From Leucobacter chromiireducens subsp. solipictus (GTDB lineage: Bacteria; Actinomycetota; Actinomycetes; Actinomycetales; Microbacteriaceae): 64,000 nucleotides of DNA. The notes below the pieces were generated by a model. It was not told the origin of the DNA, ran no database searches, and saw nothing but the letters and a program-made list of their open reading frames with translations. The DNA lies in the NCBI RefSeq assembly GCF_016758195.1, contig NZ_QYAC01000001.1:347423-411422 (forward strand), read 5' to 3'. Below are positions 13,530 through 35,327 of the stretch, piece by piece (positions within the stretch are counted from its first letter, which is position 1; each line of letters opens with the position of its first letter). A program made the position numbers and the translations under genes.

Positions 13530-16500
13530 TTAACTCCCCTGCAGCGCGTTCTCGAGCGCGTCGCGCAGCTTCTCGTCGGCCTCACCGTAGGCCGTCCAGT
13601 CGCCCGCCTTCATGGCCGCGTCGCGGTCCTTGATGGCCTGCTGCATCTCCTGCAGCACGGCGTCCATCGAATCGCTCGATCCGCCGGAGCTGCCACCGCT
13701 CGTGCCCGTATCTTCATCGGAGGGCGGCGTCGCCCCATCCCCCGGCGTGACCGGCACCCCGCCATCCCCAGCGTTTGCGCCCGAGCTGCCCCCGAAGAGT
13801 TCGTCGAGTGCAGCGTCGAGGGTGTCCTCGAAGGCGATGTCGTCACCGAAGGAGACGAGCACCTTCTGCAGGATCGGGAAGCTCGTTCCCGAGGAGGCCT
13901 GGACATACACGGGCTGCACGTAGAGCAGACCGCCACCGACCGGGAGCGTCAGCAGGTTTCCGCTGATGACCTTACTCTCGCCCTGGCGCAGGATGTTCAG
14001 CAGGTTCGACACCTTCGAGTCGGTCGTGAAGCTGTTCTGCACCTGGCCGGGGCCGGGGATCGAGTTGCTCTTCGGCAGCGTCAGCAGTTTCAGCGTGCCG
14101 TAGTCCTCCGAGATCGTCCCGTCCTTCGATCCGGCGTTCGAGTTGGCGGCGAGGTATCCGGTGAGGATGTCTCGCTGTCCTTCCCCGCGCGCGTCCGGGA
14201 TGTAGGTCGAGTAGATCGAGAAGTTCGGGTCGGCGTCAGCACCCGCGGCGAGCGTCAGGTAGTACGGCGGCTGGGCGAGCTTCTGGGCGTCCGCGGCGGC
14301 GCTTGCCACCGGGTCGTTCGGCGTGCGCCAGCGATCCTCTGCCGAGTAGAACGCGTCAGGATCGGTCACGTGGTATTCGCCGAGCACCGAACGCTGCACC
14401 TTAAACAGGTCGCTCGGGTAGCGCACGTGGCTCAGCAGGCCACCGCTCATCTCCGAGACCGGCTTCAGCGTGTCCGGGAAGATCTTGCCCCAGGACTGGA
14501 GCAGCGGGTCTTCGGTGTCCCACGCGTACAGCGATACCTTGCCGTCGTAGGCGTCGACGGTGGCCTTCACCGAGTTCCGGATGTAGTTGACGGGCTTCGG
14601 CATCGGGTCACGCGTCTTGTTCGCCGAATCGACCGTGAGCTCGTTCATGTCCTTGACCTCGGAGTACGGGTAGTCCGCCGAGGTGGTGTAGCCGTCGACG
14701 ATCCACACGATACGGCCGTCCACCACGGAGGCGTACGGGGCCTTGTCGAGGGTCAGGTACGGCGCGACCTTCTGGACACGCTCGACGGGGTCGCGGTCAT
14801 ACAAGATCTGCGAACCATCGACCACGGCGCCCGAGAGCAGCACCTCCATGTCCTGGAACTTCAGGGCGTAGATCAGCTTCGTGAAGATGTTGTTGAGCTC
14901 CGGGCCACCGTCGCCCTTGAACGTCGTCATGTTCTGGCGCCCGGACTCCGTCTCCTCCTCGGCGCTCGGCGCTTCCTCGGCGGGCTCCTCAGCAGGCGCC
15001 TCGGCCTCGACCTCGGCCTCGACCTCGGGGTCGGCGGGCTGCGGGTCCTCGGCGGTGGCCTCGGCGCTACTCTCGCCGTCGGCCGGGAAGTCCAGCTCGA
15101 TCGACTTCTTCCGCTCGCCGCCCACGATCGAGTACTCGGGCGAGTTCTGACCGAAGTAGACGCGGGGCTCGAACTCGCCGAGCTTGCCGCTCGTCGGGAT
15201 GCCGTTCTCGAGGAACACGGGCTCGCCGCCGGGCGAGCGCTGGTTGCCGAAAGCGGCGACGAGACCGTAGCCGTGCGTGTACACGAGCGTCCGGTTGTAC
15301 CAGCCGGTCTGATCCTCGATGTTGATGTCGCGCACCGCACTCACGGTGTCTTCGACCTGGCCGTCGATCTCGTAGCGGTCAACGCTCAGCGAGGTCGGGA
15401 ACTGGTAGTACTGCCGGATCTGCTCGAGCTGCGAGAAGGTCGGCGATACGACCTCGGGGTCGATGATGCGGATGTTCGCGGTCGCCAGCGCGTCGTCGCG
15501 GAGCGCACCGGGCTCCGCGTCGGTCACGGCGTCGTAGCGCTCGACCTCGACGTCGTCCAAGCCGTAGGCCACCCGGGTCGCGTCGATGTTGCGCTGAATG
15601 TATTCGGACTCCAGGCTCTTCTCATCGGGGCGCACCTGGAACTGCTGGATCGCCCACGGGTAGCCGACGCCGAGCACGATGCTGGAGACGAGGAACAGCG
15701 CGGTGCCCACCACGGGAAGCCGCCACTTGCCGGTGAAGGCGGTGACGAGGAACAGGATTGCGACGATGATCGCGATGCCCGCGAGGATCTGCTTGCCCGG
15801 AATCACCGCGTGCACGTCCTGGAACATGGCACCGGTGCGGAGCCCCGCGCTGCTCGTGAGCGCGCGGTACTGGTCGAGCCAGAGGCTCACGGCCTGGAGC
15901 AGCAGGTACACCGTGGCGAGCACAGCGGCCTGGATCCGCGTCGCCTTCGAGACGCGCACGTCGCGACCCGAGAACGCGATCCCCCCGTACAGGTAGCTCG
16001 TGGCCACGCCGGCAATCAGCGAGATCAGGGCGACCGCGGACGCAAAACCGACGGCGCCCTGGAATACCGGGAGATCAAACAGGAAGAACGAGACGTCGAA
16101 GCCGAACTGCGGGTCCTTCTCTCCCGTTGGTGAGCTGTTCAGCCAGAGCAGGATGCTCTGCCACTGGGCCGCGGCGGTCACACCGGCGAACAGGCCGATC
16201 ACCGCGGGCAGGCCCCACTTCACGAGGCGCCGCAGCGGCTCGAAAAGCTCCTGGTACCGGTCGAGCTGCGCGGTCAGCCGGGCATACACCGGGCGTTTCC
16301 GGTAGGCGATGTCGATCGCGAAGAACAGCGGGACCGCCATCCCGAGGAAACCGATGACAAACATCACCGCCGCCGCGATCCACTGGGTCGTCAATACCGG
16401 GAGATAGCCGGTCTGCCGATACCACAGCACCTCCGCCGTCACCGCAGCGACTGCGAGGAAGCCAAGGATCAGGATCACCACCAACACGATTGTGGCGGCG

Positions 16501-24696: not shown

Positions 24697-25722
24697 GTGG
24701 AGGTCAAGCCAGGCGCGTCAGCGATGGAGCGCGTTGCCACTCACGAGATCGAGCGTTTTTCGCGACTGGTGTCTGATCGCTTCGCTCCCCTGACCGTGGG
24801 ATCGAACCGACCGCAGCGGTTCCACGGCGTGATTCGCGGCAGGCGCCTCGGCGACATCGAAGCGTTCGATGTCCGCGCGTTGCAGCACGAGGTGGAGCGC
24901 CCGCAGGCCCTCGCGAATCGCTCACCGCAACGCAACTTCATGCTCCACCTGCAGCTTGCCGGGGTGGGAGTGATCCGTCAGGACGGCCGGGAGGCCACCC
25001 TCCAGGCCGGTGATCTCGCGTTTTACGACAGCCACCGCGCGTATTCGCTGAGCCTGGACGATCAGTTCCGGAACGCCATTCTGGTGTTTCCTCAGCGCCT
25101 GCTGACGCTCCCCTCCGCGCAGTCCCGGGAGCTCGTGGCGACCCGGATCGCGGGCACCGGCCCGATTGCGGGGATGGTGCTGCCGTTTCTCACCCAGCTC
25201 GTCGGCGCGCTCGCGACGATCCCCGCGACGAGCGCGTTGCGGCTCGCCCACAACACCGTGGACCTCATTTCCACGCTGGTGCATGCGGAGCTGGGGCACG
25301 CAGCGCCAGAGCCGGCCGAGGCCAGCCGAGAGGAACATCTCGTTGGCCGGGCGGTCGGTTTCATCCACGATCACATCGCGGACCCCGAGCTCAGCCCGGA
25401 TCAGGTGGCCGCCGCGCACTTCGTGGCTGTGCGCACACTGCACAAGTATTTCAGTGCTGAGTATGGGGTAGGCGTGGCCGAGTGGATCCGCGGGCGGCGC
25501 TTGGAGCTGTGCCGCCAGGAGCTCGCCAGCCCGTTGCAGGACCATCAGTCGGTCGCCACGATCGCCGCGCGTTTCGGGTTCACCCGGCCCCCACATTTCA
25601 CCCGCCTCTTCAAGGCCACATTCGGCGAGACGCCGGGCGGGTACCGGCGCCGCGCACGGCTCGGCGGCGACGCCGCCTCGGCCCCGGTACCCCGGTCACT
25701 CTTCGGCGGCGCCGCCAGCTAA
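24697..25722 (+). CDS. AraC-family regulator (AraC_binding_2 type)
   Basis: This 341-residue regulator has an N-terminal sensor domain like that of NahR/AlkS-type AraC proteins (MLHLQLAGVGVIRQDGREATLQAGDLAFYDSHRAYSL in two parts, about 80-115) and a C-terminal double helix-turn-helix (SPDQVAAAHFVAVRTLHKYF and VATIAARFGFTRPPHFTRLF). The GTG start at 24697 has a near-perfect AAGGAGGTG ribosome binding site, unlike most neighbours. A TAGAGT box sits at 24621-24626. The 3' end overlaps the end of convergent adnB by 27 nt. No target gene is adjacent. Its insertion between nudC and adnB breaks an otherwise conserved repair block, so later arrival is possible. Confidence 0.88.
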   Translation: MEVKPGASAMERVATHEIERFSRLVSDRFAPLTVGSNRPQRFHGVIRGRRLGDIEAFDVRALQHEVERPQALANRSPQRNFMLHLQLAGVGVIRQDGREATLQAGDLAFYDSHRAYSLSLDDQFRNAILVFPQRLLTLPSAQSRELVATRIAGTGPIAGMVLPFLTQLVGALATIPATSALRLAHNTVDLISTLVHAELGHAAPEPAEASREEHLVGRAVGFIHDHIADPELSPDQVAAAHFVAVRTLHKYFSAEYGVGVAEWIRGRRLELCRQELASPLQDHQSVATIAARFGFTRPPHFTRLFKATFGETPGGYRRRARLGGDAASAPVPRSLFGGAAS

Positions 25723-28700
25723 TCGACCCGCGGCCGCCAGCCAGATCTCCTCGAGCTCCGCGAGGCTGCGCGGGCTCCCGCTCCGGAGTTCCATGCCGTC
25801 GGCGACGTAGAACAGCGAGACGTCGATGAGCTCGGGATCGCGTCCGGACCACAGCGCGTACGCATGGCGGTAGAGATCGAGCTGGAAGAACCGGGACTCG
25901 CGCTCCGCGTCGGTGCGCGGCGGGCGACCCGATTTCCAGTCCACGATCTCCACCCGGTCGGCACCGCCGCGATCGGCGGTCTGCCGATAGACCGCGTCGA
26001 GTTTGCAGACCAGCGTGCGCCCCGCGAACGGGAGCGACACTTCAAGCTCCACGGCGAGCGGTTCGAGCATCGCCCACCGGGAACGCTCGAATTGCTCGAT
26101 CAGCGGCTGCAGCTCCGCTTCCACATCGTGCTGCGGCTCGGGGCTCTCGGAGGTGTCGCCGCCGTCCGATTCATGTGCGCTGAGCTCGCCGAAGCTCCCA
26201 CGGGCGAAGGCCAGTTCATCGAGCCCCGCGAGGGGCAGTGCCTGCCCGACCGCGGTGGTCGCCCGGCGCTCGACCCATTCGTGGAATCGGTTCCCGACGC
26301 GGGTGCGCCGGTAGGGGCGCTGCGGGAGCGGTCGGAGACGAAGCCGTTCGGCCCGCACCGGATCCTCGACGAACTCGTGGAATGTGGAGGCCGTGATCCG
26401 CTCGGGAAGTCCCGCGTCCGGCGCGAGCGGTGCGGCCGGGGCATCTCCCACGGCAGAGCTCGCGGAGCTCGCTGCCCGTCGCTCGGCGAGAAGCAGTTCG
26501 ACCGTCTCGTCGAGCGGTTCGTCGGAGGTGCTGCGCGCCTCTGGGTCCGCGGCGAGTTCGGTGCGGAGCGCCGCGGCTGCCGCGAGCACGGCCGGTTCTC
26601 GGCCGCCGAGCGGGTGCAGCGGCCACTGCGCGGTGATCTCGTCGAGCGCGCTCGGGTCGGCCTCGTGCGCGCTCTCCACTGGGAGCCCCTCGACGATGCC
26701 GGCCTCGGCGAGCTCCTGCAGGAACGCGGAGGGGACGCGCGCTCGCGTCTGCCCGCCCCAGAAGGACCCGCTGAGCAGGAGCCGATCGGCGGATCGGGTG
26801 ATCGCCACGTAGGCGAGGCGGCGTTCCTCGTCCGCGTGCCGTTCCCGCAACTCGGTCTTGTACTCCGAGATCCGGTCGCGCAGTTCCTTCTGCGTTTCCG
26901 CGATGCGCCAGTTCAGCTGGGGTCGCGCCGCGACGTCTCCGCGGAGCTCGTCGGGCAGTTCCCCCGTGCGCAGCCACCCGGCACCGCTCCGGGCCGTGCC
27001 GGGGAACTCCCCCGCGACGAGCCGGGGCACGGCGACCAGATCCCATTCGAGCCCTTTGGAGCCGTGCGCGGTGATGAGGTGCACTGTCCCGGGCACGGGG
27101 GCGGCGACGTGCTCCGCGGACTCGTCGGACTCGGTGGCTCGCTCGATCCATTCCAACACGGACGCGAGGGTACCCCGGGCATCAACCGCGAGGTACGCAT
27201 CGACGAGGTCGGTGAACAAGTCGATGTTGGCGTGTGCGGCCGAGGTCCCCGCGTGTTCGCGCGCCTCGTTCGCGTCGAGTTCGAGGTCGAGGCGCAGCGC
27301 CTGCACGGTCGCACCGATCAGTTCGCCGATATCGCCGCCCACGCCCTCTCGCAGGGCCGCGAGCATCCGCCCGGCCTCGCGCAGCCGCTCGCGCCCGGGC
27401 GCACTGATGCCGCGCAGCGCACCGTGATCGAGATCCCGCATGCCGGCGATCTGGTCGAGCGCGTCGAGCAGGGTGAAGCTCCGGTCCGGATCCGGCAGCA
27501 CTTCGTCGTCGGCGCGGTCCTCGGGGCTCAGGGGCTGCTGGGTCACGTCCCGATCGCCGAACCAGCGTGCTGTGTCGCGGAGCCCGGCGAGATCGGCAAC
27601 GCCGATTCGGAACCGGGGACCCGCGAGGATCCGGATGAGGTCACCCCCGGCGTCCGCGTACCACAGGCAGCGCAACACGCACACGATGTCGGTGACTTCC
27701 GGGGTGGAGAGCAGACCGCCGAGGCCGATGATGCGGTTCGGCACCCCCAGTTCGGTGAGGGCGGCGGAGAACGGGGCCATGTGCCGTCGGGTCCGGAAGA
27801 TCACCGCGGCCGTCGGGAGCTCCCCGTGAGCGACACGGTGCGCCTCGCGCGCGTCGCGCATCCACTCGGCGACGGCGTGCCGCTCCTCGTGGATGGTCTC
27901 GGGGAATGCCCACTCGACCGACCCGGCCCCGGCACCGGGGCGCGGTGCCAGTCGTGGGACGTCGATCGCGGAGGCCGCGGCGAGGGGTGCCGCGATCGCG
28001 TTCGCCGCGTCGAGCACCAGCCCCGGGTTGCGCCAGCTCGTGGAGAGCGTGAGCGTACCGGACCCAGCGCGGTCGTCGGCCCCAGCGCGGTCGTCGACCC
28101 CACCCCGGCGTGGGGCGAAGTCCTGGTGGAAGGAGCGCAGGCCCTCCGCGGAGGCGCCGCGCCAACCGTAGATCGACTGGTGCGGATCACCAACCGCCAT
28201 GACCGCTGCCCCCGCGAAGATGAGCGCAAGGAATCGGGTCTGCCCCACCGAGGTGTCCTGCACCTCGTCGAGAAGCACCGCGCGGTGCCGGCGGCGCAGC
28301 GTCGCGATCGCGTCGGGTGACGCCTCCAGCGCACGCGTTGCGAGCGCCAACTGGTCGGGGAACTCGATCAGCCCGCGCTCTTCTTTCTCGGCGGCATACT
28401 CGCGTGCGAGCCGACTGATCATGGGCGTCTCCGCGAGCGCGGCAACGGCGTCTCGAACCGGGGCGTAGTCCTTGCCACTCGGCGTGCCGCCAAGCTCCTT
28501 CTCGGAGTACGGCAGTTGCAGCACGCGCGCGAACTCCGCGACGATCTGCTCCACCCGGTCGAGCGAGGTGAGATTGTCCGCAACCGCGTGGTCGAGGTTC
28601 AGGATGTGCCGAATCAGCGCGGGCGTCTGGAGTTCGCTCGTACGGAGCTCAGGATCCGCACTGCGGATCACCACGTCCCGGGCCAGCCGCCAGGCCGTGG

Positions 28701-29232
28701 CCTCGTCGATCACGGCGGCACCCGGCGCGACTCCGGCCGCGATCCCGAACTCTTGCAGCACGCCCGCGGCGAAGGAGTTGTACGTGCTCACGTCCGGGAT
28801 GTCGAGGCCGTCGCCGAGGAGTGCGGTCAGACGCTCCGATGCGGCCCACTCATCCTCGGTGAGCGCCCCGCGTTCGGCCGCGTCGCTCAGCCGCTCGACA
28901 AAGGTCGCGAGCCGCCCGGTGATCCGTTCCCGGAGCTCTCCTGCGGCCTTCCGTGTAAAGGTCAGGCCGAGCACCTGATCCGGCGCGACGAACTCGTTCG
29001 CGACAAGCCACACCACCCGGTTCGCCATGGTCTCGGTTTTCCCGCTGCCGGCGCCAGCGACGACCAGCGTGCTCCCGCCGAGCGGTTGCTCGATCACCGC
29101 GGCCTGCTCTGGGGTGGGGGTCAGCGGCGTCGCGGGCGGCACGGCGAGCAGCTCAGCGATGCGCACCGCGGAAAACAACGGAGCGGCACCGGCGGCATCG
29201 GTCGGCTGCGGTGCGGGTGTGAAGACACTCAT
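25696..29232 (-). CDS. adnB: AdnB-like helicase-nuclease subunit
   Basis: A 1178-residue SF1 helicase fused to a RecB-like nuclease, partner of AdnA in the actinobacterial double-strand-break resection motor. The ATG at 29232 overlaps the adnA stop by 4 nt (ATGA); an open frame further upstream is only antisense overlap of adnA. Helicase motifs are complete: GAGSGKTETMANRVVWL (I), VLLDEVQDTSVGQTRFL (II), GDPHQSIYGWRGAS (III), STSWRNPG (IV), TAHGSKGLEWDLVAVPRL (V) and RRLAYVAITRSADRLLL (VI). The nuclease domain at the C-terminus has VEIVDWKSG and QLDLYRHAY. A short tandem duplication (AGADDR twice) sits after the GWRGAS region. Literature on mycobacteria gives AdnB as the lead motor. Confidence 0.93.
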   Translation of the reverse strand: MSVFTPAPQPTDAAGAAPLFSAVRIAELLAVPPATPLTPTPEQAAVIEQPLGGSTLVVAGAGSGKTETMANRVVWLVANEFVAPDQVLGLTFTRKAAGELRERITGRLATFVERLSDAAERGALTEDEWAASERLTALLGDGLDIPDVSTYNSFAAGVLQEFGIAAGVAPGAAVIDEATAWRLARDVVIRSADPELRTSELQTPALIRHILNLDHAVADNLTSLDRVEQIVAEFARVLQLPYSEKELGGTPSGKDYAPVRDAVAALAETPMISRLAREYAAEKEERGLIEFPDQLALATRALEASPDAIATLRRRHRAVLLDEVQDTSVGQTRFLALIFAGAAVMAVGDPHQSIYGWRGASAEGLRSFHQDFAPRRGGVDDRAGADDRAGSGTLTLSTSWRNPGLVLDAANAIAAPLAAASAIDVPRLAPRPGAGAGSVEWAFPETIHEERHAVAEWMRDAREAHRVAHGELPTAAVIFRTRRHMAPFSAALTELGVPNRIIGLGGLLSTPEVTDIVCVLRCLWYADAGGDLIRILAGPRFRIGVADLAGLRDTARWFGDRDVTQQPLSPEDRADDEVLPDPDRSFTLLDALDQIAGMRDLDHGALRGISAPGRERLREAGRMLAALREGVGGDIGELIGATVQALRLDLELDANEAREHAGTSAAHANIDLFTDLVDAYLAVDARGTLASVLEWIERATESDESAEHVAAPVPGTVHLITAHGSKGLEWDLVAVPRLVAGEFPGTARSGAGWLRTGELPDELRGDVAARPQLNWRIAETQKELRDRISEYKTELRERHADEERRLAYVAITRSADRLLLSGSFWGGQTRARVPSAFLQELAEAGIVEGLPVESAHEADPSALDEITAQWPLHPLGGREPAVLAAAAALRTELAADPEARSTSDEPLDETVELLLAERRAASSASSAVGDAPAAPLAPDAGLPERITASTFHEFVEDPVRAERLRLRPLPQRPYRRTRVGNRFHEWVERRATTAVGQALPLAGLDELAFARGSFGELSAHESDGGDTSESPEPQHDVEAELQPLIEQFERSRWAMLEPLAVELEVSLPFAGRTLVCKLDAVYRQTADRGGADRVEIVDWKSGRPPRTDAERESRFFQLDLYRHAYALWSGRDPELIDVSLFYVADGMELRSGSPRSLAELEEIWLAAAGRLAGGAAEE

Positions 29233-32200
29233 CCGTGACTCACCGCCGGAATGATGTGGAGCCGGCAGTTCCCCGGTTGGTGCGGGTCCGAGCAGTGGTG
29301 CTCGACGCGGGCGGTGAAGTCGCCGCCCGCCATGACCCGCGCGATGTTGGCCACGCGTTCCTCCATCTCCTGGATCGCCGCAGCGTCGATGGGTTGCTGC
29401 ACCCGCTCGACGAACTCGGCCGAGCCCGTCGCGTCGGGGTGTACGTACAGCAGCCGCGCGCCGCCGCTGCGCGTCTCGATCGTGTGCGCGGCCGTCGCGT
29501 CCGCGCGCTCTAGGGCCGCGGCACCGTCGCCACCGTTCGCGCCGTCCGCACCGTTCGTACCGTTCGTACCGTCCGCCCCGTTCGCGCCGTCTGCCGCGGC
29601 GAGGTCGAAGGCGCCGAGCACCACCCCGAGCTGGTAGGCCCGGAGCTGGGCATGCGTTTCCGCAGCGACCTTGCTCGGTGCGGAACGTCCGGTCTTCAGG
29701 TCGAGCACCGTGACCTCGGCGGTCCCGTCGGCGAGCTCGCGGCGCTCGAGCCGGTCGGCGATGCCCCGGAGCACCGCCCGGTCGATGGGCACCGCGAATC
29801 CGGCCTCTTTCCCAATGAGCTGTCGTTCGGAGGCAGCAAACTCCCGCAGGTAGGCGGCGAGGCCGCCCGTCATCTGCGTAGCGCGCTGCTCGGCGCGCAC
29901 GGACTCCCACTCCGCGTCGAATTCGAGTTTGCGCCACTCCGTCATGACGGCGGCGAGCATCTCGTCGGCGTCGGGGCGCTGGGCGGTCTCGAAGGCATGG
30001 TGCACGAGCGTTCCGAGACTCGCTTGCACGCTGCCGACGCTGCCGCCCAGGCGCGCGATCACCCAGTCGAGCGGGCAGCTTTCTGCCTGGTCCAGCTGGG
30101 ATGGGCTCACGGACACCGTGGCTTCCGGGTCCTCCTCGAGCGGCACGAGCGGGGCCGTGGTGCTCGGCGGGAGCACCCCGTACCACTCGTCCGGGTCCGC
30201 GCCTGCGGCGCCCGCACCCACGAGTTCGCGGAGCGCGCGGAGCGCCCCGCGGTCATCCGGGTCGGCGGCGAGTCGCCGTCGCATCGCCGCGGTGACCCCG
30301 CGCAGGGTGAGCCGCGAGCTCGGCAGCTCGTCGCGTCGATACTCCCGCCCGAGGCCGAAGAGTGAGCTCGGGTGCTGGTCTTCGTCGGCGACGGCGACCA
30401 CGAGGAGCTCCCGGGATGCCCGCGCGCAGGCGTGCACGAGCAGCCGCAGTTCGTCGTGCATCGTGTCTTTTCGCGATGGGGCGACGGCTTCGCCGCCACG
30501 CAGCCACCGTTCGAGGGCGGCAGCCCCCAACAGGGAACCGCGGGCGCGCAGGTTGGGCCAGGAACCGTCCTGGAGCCCCACCACGGCCACGACCGCGAAC
30601 TCGCGACCGAGCGCGCCCTGCGGGGTGGTCACCGTCACAGCGGCACGCTGGCTGCGCTGCGCGAGCGAGTCCTCCGGTACCGCGCTGCTCAGAAGGTCGG
30701 TGAGGAGCTCCGCGATGGGCTGCGCGCTGTCTTGCTCTTCGTGCCGCTGCAGCGCGAAGAAGAGCGCCACAACCGCATCGAGCGCGCGGTGCGCCTCATC
30801 GGAGCGTGCGCCCCGGCCATCGAGCGCATCATTCTGCCAACTCGCCGCGAGCTTGGTGCCCTCCCACAGCGCCCACAGCACCTCGCGCGGGGTGCCGCCG
30901 GCCTCGTGCACGCGTACGCCGGCCCCCGCAAGCATTCCCAGGCGGCGCACCGCCCGCCCGCCCGCGCTGTCCACAATCGGCAGCGGTCCCGGTTCCGCAA
31001 ACGCCTCGGCGACCACCGCTTCGATGCTGCGCGCTTCCCGCCCCGCCGCGCGCGAGGCCCGTCGTTCCTGCAGCAACAGCGCTCCGCGCAACCGCCGCAG
31101 CGCAACCGGGTCGAGCCCACCGATCACACCGCCCGCGAGGGGCAGCAGCTCCGCGGGCGTGAGCGGCTGCAGGCCGAGGGCGTGCTGGAGCAGGCGGATC
31201 AGTTCGCGAACCACTTGGTGCTCACGGAGCACGATGCCGCCCGCCGCGATCCCGGTCGGAACCTGGTGCGCGGCGAGCACCCGGGCCACCCGAACGGCCT
31301 CGCCCCGGCTGCGGCACAGCACTGCCATGTCGTCCCAGGACACGGGCGCTGCCGCGCCGAGACCGAGCCTGCGGGCGCGCAGCCGGTGCGCGATCGCGCC
31401 GAGCTGCTCTGCCGAGGACCCGACGACCGCGAACTGCACCGGCGCTTCCGGATCCTCCGGCGCAGCTGCGCGCGGGAGCGCCGCGCGCTGCTCCCCGGCC
31501 CCAGCGGCCCCCACGCGGGCGGCGAGGCTCCGGATCGCGTCCCGCATCCCGGGACCGTGCCGGTGCGCCCGTTCCAAGACCACGAGCTGCGCCGGTTCGC
31601 GGGGGGTTCCCTGCGGCACGGGGGCGGATCGTCGCGCCAGCTCCTCGTCGAGCCGAGCCAACACCAGGGTGCGCTCACCGTGGAACGCACCGGTCGCCAC
31701 GTCCGGGTCTCCGAACACCCAGATCCGGCTCCCGCTCTCCGCGCACGCGGCAAGCAGGGCGAGTTCGCCCTCGCCGAGCTCCTGCGCATCATCGACCAGG
31801 ATCAGGCGCGGGATCGCAAGCCGAGCCGTTTCCCCCGCAGCGCCCACACGCCGCACCGCGGTTGCGGCCTCGCGCAGCAGACCGCTCGAACTCAACTCAT
31901 CGGGACGCTCGTCGGCAAGCCGATCGGCCACCGCTTGGATCAGCCCGAAGCCGTCGCTCCATCGCGCGAGCAGTTCCGGATCCGGCACCCGCGCGTGCGC
32001 TTCCGTGGCGGCCTCTGCCGCGAGCGCGGCAGCTTCACTCCGGAGCGCCGCGGGAGCGATCCCGAAGTCGTCTGCCACGCGCCACAGCTCCCGCAGCTCG
32101 GCGCGGAACGCGGGGCTCTGCAGCACCTCGGGTGGGAGACCCGCGATGCCGGCCCCGCTCGCCGCGACGCCGGCGGTCACCACCTCCGCAATCGCCTCGT

Positions 32201-32540
32201 CTTGCACCGTACCCGTGAGCAGCCGCGGTGCGCCCGCGCCCTCCAGCGCGGCCGCGCGCGCCAGCACCGCAAACGCGAGCGACGCTGCCGTCCGCACCGG
32301 GGTCCCCCCAAACGCGCGCCCCACCCCACGCTCCACATCAGCCCGCAGCGCCGCGGCCACGAGCCGATTCGGGGCGAGCACCAGCACGTCATCCTCGCCC
32401 CACTCCGGCAGCGCAAGGGTCCGGGTGCACGCTTCCAACAGCACCGTCGTCTTCCCCGTCCCCGGGGCCCCGAGCACGCGCGCGTGACGTGTCGGATCCA
32501 GGGCAAGCGCCCGGAGCTGCGACGGGTCGAAGGAGATCAT
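29229..32540 (-). CDS. adnA: AdnA-like helicase-nuclease subunit
   Basis: This 1103-residue protein has an N-terminal UvrD-like motor and a C-terminal RecB-like nuclease. Walker A is GAPGTGKTT. The DExQ motif is changed to DDAQ (LILVDDAQELGEGELALL). The nuclease motif VLDLKTG lies near residue 945, followed by QLRAYQLG. A collagen-like run of Gly-x-Asn/Asp triplets is inserted just after it (see repeat at 29523). It is the first gene of the adnAB operon, with the stop overlapping adnB. The ATG at 32540 lies 6 nt after a TAGGCT -10 box, so the mRNA may be leaderless. The promoter fits the DNA-damage type. Confidence 0.92.
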   Translation of the reverse strand: MISFDPSQLRALALDPTRHARVLGAPGTGKTTVLLEACTRTLALPEWGEDDVLVLAPNRLVAAALRADVERGVGRAFGGTPVRTAASLAFAVLARAAALEGAGAPRLLTGTVQDEAIAEVVTAGVAASGAGIAGLPPEVLQSPAFRAELRELWRVADDFGIAPAALRSEAAALAAEAATEAHARVPDPELLARWSDGFGLIQAVADRLADERPDELSSSGLLREAATAVRRVGAAGETARLAIPRLILVDDAQELGEGELALLAACAESGSRIWVFGDPDVATGAFHGERTLVLARLDEELARRSAPVPQGTPREPAQLVVLERAHRHGPGMRDAIRSLAARVGAAGAGEQRAALPRAAAPEDPEAPVQFAVVGSSAEQLGAIAHRLRARRLGLGAAAPVSWDDMAVLCRSRGEAVRVARVLAAHQVPTGIAAGGIVLREHQVVRELIRLLQHALGLQPLTPAELLPLAGGVIGGLDPVALRRLRGALLLQERRASRAAGREARSIEAVVAEAFAEPGPLPIVDSAGGRAVRRLGMLAGAGVRVHEAGGTPREVLWALWEGTKLAASWQNDALDGRGARSDEAHRALDAVVALFFALQRHEEQDSAQPIAELLTDLLSSAVPEDSLAQRSQRAAVTVTTPQGALGREFAVVAVVGLQDGSWPNLRARGSLLGAAALERWLRGGEAVAPSRKDTMHDELRLLVHACARASRELLVVAVADEDQHPSSLFGLGREYRRDELPSSRLTLRGVTAAMRRRLAADPDDRGALRALRELVGAGAAGADPDEWYGVLPPSTTAPLVPLEEDPEATVSVSPSQLDQAESCPLDWVIARLGGSVGSVQASLGTLVHHAFETAQRPDADEMLAAVMTEWRKLEFDAEWESVRAEQRATQMTGGLAAYLREFAASERQLIGKEAGFAVPIDRAVLRGIADRLERRELADGTAEVTVLDLKTGRSAPSKVAAETHAQLRAYQLGVVLGAFDLAAADGANGADGTNGTNGADGANGGDGAAALERADATAAHTIETRSGGARLLYVHPDATGSAEFVERVQQPIDAAAIQEMEERVANIARVMAGGDFTARVEHHCSDPHQPGNCRLHIIPAVSHG
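29523..29592 (-). repeat. In-frame 9-nt microsatellite encoding Gly-x-Asn/Asp triplets in adnA
   Basis: A run of imperfect 9-nt units (such as CCGTTCGTA and CCGTCCGCA on the plus strand) encodes GANGADGTNGTN and onward on the minus strand. Units can be lost or gained without a frameshift. It lies within the nuclease domain, between the QLRAYQLG motif and LLYVHPDATG. Confidence 0.8.
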
Positions 32541-32546
32541 GCGGCA

Positions 32547-32569
32547 AGCCTATTGCGCACCTCCGACAT
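32547..32569 (-). promoter_or_regulatory. adnA promoter of the DNA-damage (RecA-NDp/PafBC) type
   Basis: Minus strand: ATGTCGGAG, then exactly 8 nt, then TAGGCT, with the start codon 6 nt later. The mycobacterial LexA-independent damage promoter is TTGTCRGTG-N8-TANNNT. The upstream element matches 7 of 9, and spacing and -10 fit fully. A mirror copy on the plus strand serves the acylase gene. Confidence 0.6.
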
Positions 32570-32606
32570 TCGCCGTTCGCGGGACACCCGAGGGGCATGG
32601 CGCGCG

Positions 32607-32629
32607 GTGTCGGAGGTCCATGGCAGACT
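32607..32629 (+). promoter_or_regulatory. Acylase promoter, mirror copy of the adnA promoter element
   Basis: Plus strand: GTGTCGGAG, then 8 nt, then CAGACT. The 10-bp core TGTCGGAGGT is identical to that of the adnA promoter and faces away from it, 39 bp apart. The -10 box has the key A2 and T6. The transcript would have a leader of about 55 nt. Confidence 0.5.
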
Positions 32630-32690
32630 CTGGAGCACGCCCCGCGGCCCGCTCCACGCGCCGCGCACCCTCGACGAGGAGGATCTCGAC

Positions 32691-35327
32691 ATGACCGTGA
32701 CCGAAACACTCGATGTGCCCCGGACCCCCGCTCAGCGACGCCGCACACTGGGCCGGATCATCGTCTGGATCCTCGCCGTGATCGTCGCGCTCGCGCTGCT
32801 GGCTGGCGGCCTGGGGATGTGGACGGTGACGCGGTCGTTTCCGCAGGCAAACGGCACGCTCGCCGTCGCCGGGCTTGAGGCGAAGGTCACCGTGCAGCGG
32901 GATTCCCGCGGCATCCCGACGATCACGGCGGAGTCACCTGACGACCTCTTCTTCGCGCAGGGACTTGTGCACGCGCAGGATCGATTCTGGGAGATGGACT
33001 TCCGGCGCCACCTCACAAGCGCCCGCCTGTCCGAACTGTTCGGCGAGTCCCAGCTCGGCACCGACACGTTTCTGCGTTCCCTCGGCTGGCACCGCACTGC
33101 CGAGGCGGAAGTCGCGGCGCTCCCCGCAGAGGTCCGGGCCTATTACGAGGCCTACGCCGCCGGCGTCAACGCCTACCTCGATACGCGTCAGGGTGCGGCG
33201 TTGTCCCTTGAGTACGCGGTGCTCGGGCTGCAGAATTCGGGCTACGAACCCGAGCCGTGGACGCCCGCCGACTCGGTCGCGTGGTTCAAGGCAATGGCCT
33301 GGGATCTGCGCACCAACATCGAAGATGAAACGGCGCGGGCGTTACTCGCCCAGGGGCTCGGGAACGAACAACTCGCGGAGCTCTACCCCGGCTACCCGTT
33401 CGCTGAGCATCCCGTGATCCTGGCGGAGGATCCGGCGGGCCGATCGGTCACGGCCGGCACGACTGCCGCACCCGCCCCCACCGCGACCGCCGGGGCCGCG
33501 GCGCTCCCGGGCCTCACGGAGCTCAGCGGACTCCTCACCGAGGTCGACGCGCTCGTGAGCGGTGCCGGCGAGGGGGTCGGATCCAATTCCTGGGTCGTCT
33601 CCGGTGAGCACACCGCCACCGGAAAGCCGCTGCTTGCGAACGACCCCCACCTCGGTGCCGAGCTGCCCTCCGTGTGGACCCAGATGCAGCTGAAATGCGC
33701 CACGATCAGCCCGGAGTGCCCCTTCGACGTGGCCGGCTTCAGCTTCTCGGGGCTCCCCGGCATCGTGATCGGCCACAACCAGCACATCGCGTGGGGCTTC
33801 ACGAACCTCACCACCGACGTCGCCGACCTGTACGTCGAGCGTGTCACGGAGGACGGCTACTGGCAGGACGGCACGCTCCAGCCCTTTGAGACCCGCACGG
33901 AGACCATCGCGGTCGCGGGCGGCGACCCCGTCGACATCGAGGTCCGATCCACCGGACACGGGCCCATCGTGTCCGGCATCGAGCCGAGTTTCACCGAGAT
34001 CGCGGAGGACCCCCGTGTCGGTGCGGCACCTGGCAGCTCGGACGCGCTCCCGGCGGCAGACGCTGCGCCGGACGATGGCCTGTTCCCGCCCGGCCAATTC
34101 GCCCTGAGCCTGCGCTGGACCGCGCTCGACGTCAGCCGCACCGCCGAGGCGATCTTCACGCTGAACCGGGCCGAGAATTTCGCCGACTTCCGGCTCGCTG
34201 CGTCCCAGTTCGATGTGCCCGCGCAGAACCTCATCTACGCGGATCCGGAGGGCAACATTGGCTACCAAGCCCCCGGAAAGCTCCCCATCCGAGGGGCCGG
34301 CGACGGCTGGCTGCCCCAGCCCGGGTGGGACAGCGCCTACGACTGGCAGGGCGTGGTGCCGTTCGAGGAACAACCGATGAGCTTGAACCCCGACTCCGGG
34401 ATCATCGTCACCGCGAACAACGCGATCGTGACCGACGACTACCCCTATTTCCTGAGCCGGGATTGGGACTACGGATACCGCGCAGCACGCATCGTGGAGC
34501 TGCTCGACGAGCGGATCGCCGCCGGTCCGGTCACGGCAGCCGACATGGCCGAGATCCACATGGACAACCAGTTCCCCGGCGCGGCGGTGCTGCAACGCGC
34601 CGTCGCGGAGCTCGACGTCGAGGACGCGGACACGCGCGCGGCGCTCGATCTGCTCGCCGAGTGGGACGGGCAGAACGACGCCGACTCCGCGGCAGCGGCC
34701 TACGCGAACGTGCTGTGGCAGGCGATCACCGCGCAACTCGTTGACAACCGCGGCGTGGCGATCCCGCGCGACGATCAGTCCCGACTGGCACGGGTCTTCG
34801 AGCGCCTCCTTGACGAGCCGGATTCGCAGTGGTGGACCAGCAGCGTGCACGGCGATACTTCCACCCGCGACGAGTTCCTGGCCCGCGCGGCCACCCGCGC
34901 ACGTGCGGACCTGCAGCAGCTCCAGGGCTCGGATCCGGCGCGGTGGAACTGGGGCGCGCTGCACGCGCTCCCGCTGACCCACGGCACCTTCGGCACGAGC
35001 GGGATCGCTCCGATCGAGGCACTGTTCAACCGCGGCCCGTACCCGGTTGGGGGCGGATCCGGCGTCGTGAACGCGACCGGATGGAGCCTGGACGAGGGCT
35101 ACGCGACCAGCACGGTCCCGTCCATGCGCATGGTCATCGATGTCGCCGACTGGGACGCCTCCACCTGGCAGAACCTCACCGGTGCCAGCGGGCACGCGTT
35201 CCACCCGAACTACACCGACCAGACCGACGGCTGGGCGCAGGGCAAACAATACCCCTGGGGCTACTCCCCCGAGGCCGTGCGCGCCAGCACCCAGGACGAA
35301 CTCACGCTCACTCCGACCGACCCGTAG
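32691..35327 (+). CDS. Penicillin acylase family N-terminal-nucleophile hydrolase
   Basis: An 878-residue member of the penicillin amidase family (Ntn hydrolases), which cleave amide bonds in beta-lactams, acyl-homoserine lactones or related compounds after self-processing into two chains. One membrane helix lies at about 24-46, so the enzyme is probably anchored with its domain outside. The autoprocessing site is GVGSNSW (Ser near residue 299), followed by the family's LLANDPHLGAELPSVW. Further marks are GFTNLTTDVADLYVE and, late in the chain, GGGSGVVNATGWS. The ATG at 32691 follows GAGGAGG. It is divergent from adnA and shares its promoter element. Substrate unknown. Confidence 0.9.
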   Translation: MTVTETLDVPRTPAQRRRTLGRIIVWILAVIVALALLAGGLGMWTVTRSFPQANGTLAVAGLEAKVTVQRDSRGIPTITAESPDDLFFAQGLVHAQDRFWEMDFRRHLTSARLSELFGESQLGTDTFLRSLGWHRTAEAEVAALPAEVRAYYEAYAAGVNAYLDTRQGAALSLEYAVLGLQNSGYEPEPWTPADSVAWFKAMAWDLRTNIEDETARALLAQGLGNEQLAELYPGYPFAEHPVILAEDPAGRSVTAGTTAAPAPTATAGAAALPGLTELSGLLTEVDALVSGAGEGVGSNSWVVSGEHTATGKPLLANDPHLGAELPSVWTQMQLKCATISPECPFDVAGFSFSGLPGIVIGHNQHIAWGFTNLTTDVADLYVERVTEDGYWQDGTLQPFETRTETIAVAGGDPVDIEVRSTGHGPIVSGIEPSFTEIAEDPRVGAAPGSSDALPAADAAPDDGLFPPGQFALSLRWTALDVSRTAEAIFTLNRAENFADFRLAASQFDVPAQNLIYADPEGNIGYQAPGKLPIRGAGDGWLPQPGWDSAYDWQGVVPFEEQPMSLNPDSGIIVTANNAIVTDDYPYFLSRDWDYGYRAARIVELLDERIAAGPVTAADMAEIHMDNQFPGAAVLQRAVAELDVEDADTRAALDLLAEWDGQNDADSAAAAYANVLWQAITAQLVDNRGVAIPRDDQSRLARVFERLLDEPDSQWWTSSVHGDTSTRDEFLARAATRARADLQQLQGSDPARWNWGALHALPLTHGTFGTSGIAPIEALFNRGPYPVGGGSGVVNATGWSLDEGYATSTVPSMRMVIDVADWDASTWQNLTGASGHAFHPNYTDQTDGWAQGKQYPWGYSPEAVRASTQDELTLTPTDP

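Follow-up and report, generated by a model that had tools for sequence, protein, structure and literature searches.

Candidate PafBC-type promoters in the gap between adnA and a penicillin-acylase family gene of Leucobacter

Does one intergenic gap in Leucobacter chromiireducens subsp. solipictus place both a DNA repair gene and a gene for an amide-cutting acylase under the LexA-independent DNA-damage response? The gap separates adnA from a divergent gene of the penicillin-acylase family and lies in a stretch of 64,000 nucleotides (hereafter the window). An earlier note on this DNA had proposed damage-type promoters for both genes. Such a promoter is expected for adnA, whereas it is unexpected for the acylase gene.

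Layout of the gap and identity of the two genes

Domain search identified adnA (29229..32540, minus strand; 1103 aa) as encoding a UvrD-like helicase with a C-terminal PD-(D/E)XK nuclease. Its stop codon is overlapped by the ATG of an adnB-like partner (25696..29232, minus strand; start codon chosen by us), which domain search identified as a second UvrD-like helicase/nuclease. Two adjacent UvrD-like helicases with a PD-(D/E)XK nuclease domain in each identify the pair as AdnAB, and the earlier naming of adnA holds.

The acylase gene (32691..35327, plus strand) encodes a protein of 878 aa. Analysis of this protein revealed a full-length match to PF01804 (residues 65-864, 784 bits, E 2.2e-235), and Ser298 was found to align with the N-terminal residue (residue 1) of mature beta chains in PDB sequences. 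A full-length domain together with an aligned N-terminal nucleophile places the protein in the penicillin-amidase family of Ntn hydrolases, the family to which it had been assigned. Its PDB relatives are distant enzymes only, the best being a D-succinylase. The protein shares PF01804 and the correspondence of Ser298 to the start of the mature beta chain with D-succinylase (7eby), glutaryl-7-ACA acylase (4hst) and PvdQ (2wyb). Unlike these enzymes, it looks membrane-anchored: a hydrophobic segment was read from the sequence at about residues 23-44, and this N-terminal stretch, together with the alignment of Ser298 to the mature beta-chain start, suggests that the acylase is probably anchored outside the membrane.

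The gap, as read from the sequence, extends from the adnA ATG at 32540 (minus strand) to the acylase ATG at 32691 (plus strand). Exact copies of the 10-bp element TGTCGGAGGT occur only twice in the window, and both are in this gap in inverted orientation, as had been described. The copy at 32559..32568 (minus strand) is taken as the PafBC-type -26 element of adnA, its core being conserved among Leucobacter, and the copy at 32608..32617 (plus strand) as that of the acylase gene, with a spacing that part of the Leucobacter relatives share. An outward -10 box begins 16 nt past each copy (first base to first base). These boxes are TAGGCT for adnA (32547..32552, minus strand), the last base of which is 6 nt upstream of the ATG, and CAGACT for the acylase gene (32624..32629, plus strand). 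Both boxes, and the spacer of 8 nt that precedes each when counted from TGTCGGAG, agree with the earlier description, as does a match at seven of nine positions of each upstream element to TTGTCRGTG, a consensus in that note's own wording.

PMC8151990 gives the PafBC motif of Mycobacterium tuberculosis as TGTCGG, 10 nt, TA, 3 nt and T, with orientation essential, and adds TGTCAG and TGTCAC as core variants that likewise point to the gene. The adnA promoter, TGTCGG AGGTGCGCAA TAGGCT, lies 6 nt 5' of the ATG and fits the published motif (TGTCGG-N10-TANNNT) exactly; transcription is predicted to start on the A of the ATG, which would give a leaderless mRNA. The acylase promoter has the TGTCGG core at the published distance and pointing to its gene, with CAGACT in place of TANNNT, so that the first position of the -10 box is not T. 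This box resembles an extended -10 because a TG stands one base upstream (32621..32622, plus strand), as also seen in the alignment of core-bearing promoters. As in extended -10 promoters generally, the TG here may replace the missing T-12 and give basal expression. A Shine-Dalgarno-like GAGGAGG was read 5' of the acylase ATG (32676..32682, plus strand). The predicted starts, at about 32540 (minus strand) and about 32636 (plus strand), are about 95 nt apart, and thus there may be room for a back-to-back pair of polymerases.

A frame of 24 codons (window positions 32620-32694) runs from an ATG in the acylase promoter spacer to a TGA overlapping the acylase ATG. The spacer ATG is read as the TG of the -10 region and as no start codon, since several relatives have GTG instead.

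A LexA-controlled SOS promoter was considered and rejected. No SOS box was found near either promoter, the best match within 32401-32750 on both strands having five mismatches in 12 positions to TCGAAC-N4-GTTCGA, which we take to be the SOS box consensus. A one-mismatch SOS box is present at 14126, away from both promoters.

Spread of the motif in the genome and the regulator genes

Allowing at most one mismatch, TGTCGGAGGT was found at eight sites in the window against 4.85 expected, and 10 of 100 shuffles reached eight. As this window count is not clearly over chance, the bare 10-mer count was dropped as evidence and the -10 box was added to the pattern. The pattern TGTCNGNGG-N7-NANNNT occurs three times in the 64 kb, and the adnA/acylase pair accounts for two of the three. 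Genome-wide counts were compared with a control consisting of the same pattern reversed. In the 3.54-Mb genome 20 sites of TGTCGGNG-N8-TANNNT were found against two for the control; the counts were 15 against one for TGTCGGAG-N9-ANNNT and 16 against none for TGTCNGNGG-N7-TAGNNT, in which one more core base is free.

Analysis of the 20 strict sites revealed that 10 precede genes with a role in replication or repair, namely adnA, recA, pcrA, xth, a family A DNA polymerase gene, uvrB, a gene for a gyrB/parE-type subunit, rarA/mgsA, holA and dnaX. A genome scan had been proposed in the earlier note, which staked its claim on recA and uvr genes, and the presence of the motif before recA, uvrB and pcrA speaks in its favour. 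Five sites precede clpX, a MATE exporter gene, luxS, metK and a gene for a thioredoxin-dependent thiol peroxidase, and three precede frames with no Pfam match at 1e-5 (L001, L025 and L028). Of the two remaining sites, one is located antisense within a gene-like frame (L018) and the other precedes a stop-interrupted frame (L023). Some of the NCBIfam/Pfam matches concern proteins cut by the locus end, and for this reason the pcrA and gyrB/parE scores are under the curated cut-off. In 12 of the 20 strict sites the -10 box ends 6 or 7 nt 5' of the start codon of a long frame; hence leaderless mRNAs seem common for this motif class in this Leucobacter.

The genome encodes both PafB and PafC candidates, as two adjacent WYL proteins (G000:C6, about 16.5-17.8 kb) whose genes directly precede tatC. 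They match the solved PafBC 6sj9 with E values of 1.8e-28 and 1.3e-22, and a WCX domain was detected in the PafB candidate. According to PMC11804915, ssDNA-bound PafBC joins sigma A-RNA polymerase at -26-element promoters in mycobacteria. PMC8151990 reports that PafBC raises AdnAB in mycobacteria, and PMC8223512 places AdnAB within the M. smegmatis PafBC regulon and extends the RecA-NDp promoter to other Actinobacteria. The system described here resembles the mycobacterial PafBC-dependent (RecA-NDp) promoters in the TGTCGG core, the 10 nt, the TANNNT box and the orientation to the gene, in having recA, uvr genes and adnAB as targets, and in the presence of the regulator genes. It differs from them in that the acylase copy has CAGACT and TG and no TANNNT, in that many targets look leaderless and in that PafBC adjoins tatC.

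Conservation of the two promoters

An AdnA match was found in 58 of 60 genomes, and 30 loci among the matches listed were used for comparison of upstream regions. The first comparison joined these to eight adnA loci from the acylase-relative set, which repeat genomes in part; in 37 of these 38 loci the core matches at 7/8 or better and TANNNT ends exactly 6 nt before the ATG. A set of 38 Leucobacter genomes was then formed from the 30 and eight further genomes from the acylase survey, with the partly repeating loci outside it. TANNNT ends 6 nt 5' of the adnA ATG in all 38 genomes, and the core matches at 7/8 or better in 36, the exceptions being L057 (6/8) and L148 (5/8). The exact motif, its conservation in Leucobacter and the presence of the regulator genes argue for the proposed damage-type promoter, and judging from sequence the adnA promoter is almost certainly PafBC-dependent.

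The acylase gene was found in 26 of 54 Leucobacter genomes and adjoins adnA in 22. Thirteen of the 26 promoters have the core at the expected spacing. In nine of these it is combined with TGN[CA]ANACT (CAGACT in six; CAAACT, AAGACT and AAAACT in one each) and in four with TANNNT lacking TG (L156, L166, L167 and L168; L156 and L167 are away from adnA). Two promoters are off-consensus, L153 with a 6/8 core and L163 with a perfect core and a spacer one nt shorter, and the other 11 have the extended -10 alone, without the core. The -10 region kept in relatives is C-[AG]-TG-N-[CA]ANACT. TG is present in all 10 aligned core-bearing acylase promoters, whereas every one of the 20 strict sites in the genome under study lacks it. 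In this alignment the core holds 1.65 bits per column and the flanks about 0.4, in 10 rows that are biased because they were picked for the core (L153 also for TG). Since the 10-row profile was selected for the core, an offset test was anchored on the extended -10 alone, and covered 21 of the 26 promoters (L156, L163, L166, L167 and L168, which have no extended -10, were left out). The core was found at the PafBC distance in nine of the 21, compared with two for the 35 other offsets together. Genome-wide, TGTCNGNGG-N4-TG-N-CANACT occurs once, in the acylase promoter, and the control gave none.

In the tree of the acylase genes, absence of the core requires three changes compared with a mean of 8.7 after shuffling, and none of 500 shuffles was as low. 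The midpoint split, a root used for drawing only, has genes with the core on either side. This pattern fits an old element with three losses, gains being the alternative.

The best 80 of 591 acylase relatives, comprising 10 Leucobacter and 70 other loci, were compared. Leucobacter sp. 7(1) is the nearest named genome among these best 80, with an acylase identity of 86%; adnA is present in eight of the 10 Leucobacter loci (absent from L075 and L076) and in none of the 70 others. A TA-type site with a core of at least 7/8 was found within 300 nt upstream in 12 of the 70, against 0.03 expected from the rest of the loci, the upstream distance outside Leucobacter being counted from the first aligned codon, which is no proven start. 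Ten of the 12 belong to Cryobacterium, where 10 of 15 acylase genes have a site that is TGTCGGNGGGTTCCGCTAGCAT or near to it. The full core is present in eight of these sites and the exact TGTCGG-N10-TANNNT in nine; L119 has TGCCGG. The 10 site-bearing genes form one clade (SH-aLRT 100 in a quick tree), so they count as one event at most. The site is absent from the other five Cryobacterium genes and from seven of eight outgroup loci, the eighth, L060, being a Leucobacter with its own site. Given this distribution, the Cryobacterium site looks like one separate gain, the alternative being a shared element of old origin with many losses.

In Cryobacterium the acylase gene follows dapD, a neighbourhood unlike that in Leucobacter. 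Between dapD and the acylase gene there is an inverted repeat, AGCGGA...TCCGCT, with which the site overlaps (L112, L116-L119 and others). The site lies within a conserved stretch that is longer than the motif and could form a hairpin, and part of its conservation may thus have another cause. In 26 of the 70 loci outside Leucobacter, in the range from L109 to L139, the acylase gene comes after dapD and a dapE-like gene is divergent from it. These loci belong to Cryobacterium, Agromyces, Mycetocola, Leifsonia flava, Humibacter, Okibacterium and Diaminobutyricibacter.

Comparison of the strict motif with its control revealed enrichment in eight of nine genomes searched: two Cryobacterium (33 against 5, 35 against 1), Microbacterium paulum (33 against 0) and five Leucobacter (38 against 2, 30 against 2, 19 against 1, 14 against 2 and 32 against 1). 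Enteractinococcus, with 3 against 4, showed no enrichment, and its acylase match (L072) was for this reason discarded as support. Of 27 acylase loci from Microbacterium, a site is present in one only (L081, M. paulum), which is an unproven case.

The claim of a damage-type promoter for the acylase gene is thus supported, within limits. The core, its spacing, its conservation in Leucobacter and the site in the Cryobacterium clade speak for it; CAGACT, which lacks the T, and the 11 of 26 promoters without the core count against it. On balance, and again judging from sequence, the acylase promoter is probably PafBC-dependent.

Proposed control, alternatives and meaning

The model that we propose has a good chance of being correct: PafBC would drive adnA and would make the acylase promoter, which has basal activity from an extended -10, inducible by damage as well. 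The gap would consist of two back-to-back sigma-A promoters, each with a -26 element recognised by PafBC, a heterodimer that is activated by ssDNA and serves the damage response independent of LexA. We infer that ssDNA-bound PafBC joins sigma A-RNA polymerase at both promoters. The canonical adnA promoter would yield a leaderless adnAB message. The acylase promoter would be a composite, having the same element and spacing and a -10 box, CAGACT, that lacks T-12 and is accompanied by TG. The TG would permit basal firing independent of PafBC, and PafBC would bring induction after damage; a putatively membrane-anchored Ntn acylase would then be made together with the end-resection machine.

It is unlikely that only adnA is controlled by PafBC and that the acylase gene has an ordinary extended -10 sigma-A promoter with the core as a leftover of low effect. 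Such a promoter would account for the missing T-12 and for the retention of TGN[CA]ANACT in the 11 core-less Leucobacter promoters; it is at odds with a core kept in exact spacing and sequence amid poorly conserved flanks, with the four promoters in which the core goes with TANNNT and no TG (L156 and L167 even away from adnA) and with the PafBC-type site in the Cryobacterium clade.

The distance between the two cores bears on a further alternative, in which they form one two-armed site and the two genes are coupled, either by PafBC at each arm or by another regulator. Among the Leucobacter loci in which the acylase gene is linked to adnA, 12 bear the core (counting L153, where it is 6/8); in eight of these the core-to-core gap is 39-42 nt, and they occur on both sides of the acylase tree. 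Across the adnA-linked loci in L144-L169 the sequence between the divergent cores is poorly kept although the gap has this length in the eight. The shared length, which could reflect ancestry or a geometric need, is not predicted by a purely independent pair of promoters, and in this species the cores form a perfect 10-bp inverted repeat with a gap of 39 nt. The two-armed site is nonetheless very improbable, as gaps of 109, 109, 131 and 219 nt were found in the other four linked loci and a single core precedes recA, uvrB and other genes, as well as two acylase genes away from adnA. Chance, finally, has a negligible probability, for although TGTCGG cores are frequent in GC-rich DNA and matches to the 10-mer with up to one mismatch are not clearly in excess in the window, the tests in which the -10 box was included, both genome-wide and across species, refute it for adnA and nearly so for the acylase gene.

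Under the proposed PafBC control of both genes, the adnA half is a known PafBC target in a new family, the Microbacteriaceae, and the acylase half appears new as far as our literature search reached. No link between an acylase or the penicillin-amidase family and PafBC was found in a search that covered the main text of papers mostly open without subscription. Searches of similar coverage, mostly open papers, found none that treats penicillin amidase in connection with DNA damage and mitomycin C and none on PafBC in Microbacteriaceae. The results point to a PafBC regulon carried into the Microbacteriaceae, with a predicted leaderless adnA promoter kept in all 38 Leucobacter genomes examined. 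They also point to a non-repair target, an amide hydrolase that is probably at the cell surface and may have been recruited in two genera by separate events. Should induction prove true, the question becomes what role the acylase has in a cell with damaged DNA. The composite acylase promoter would in addition offer a natural test of PafBC function without T-12.

More tentatively, and with considerable doubt on our part, a surface Ntn acylase may have come under the LexA-independent damage response on at least two occasions, beside adnA in Leucobacter and after dapD in a Cryobacterium clade, where it would defend against, or repair, something linked to genotoxic attack, the Leucobacter promoter being dual-mode. 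Examples would be the cleavage of amide-bearing genotoxic natural products or wall remodelling during halted division. A link of the acylase to succinylated amino acids or to wall synthesis is worth a test, since its best PDB match is a D-succinylase and its gene follows dapD in other genera.

Another protein of interest was observed at one of the strict sites, at L025:505-1494 (minus strand). Here a PafBC-type site lies 6 nt 5' of the frame of a protein that has a hydrophobic N-terminus and an HELLH sequence and no Pfam match; it is possibly a damage-induced metalloprotease.
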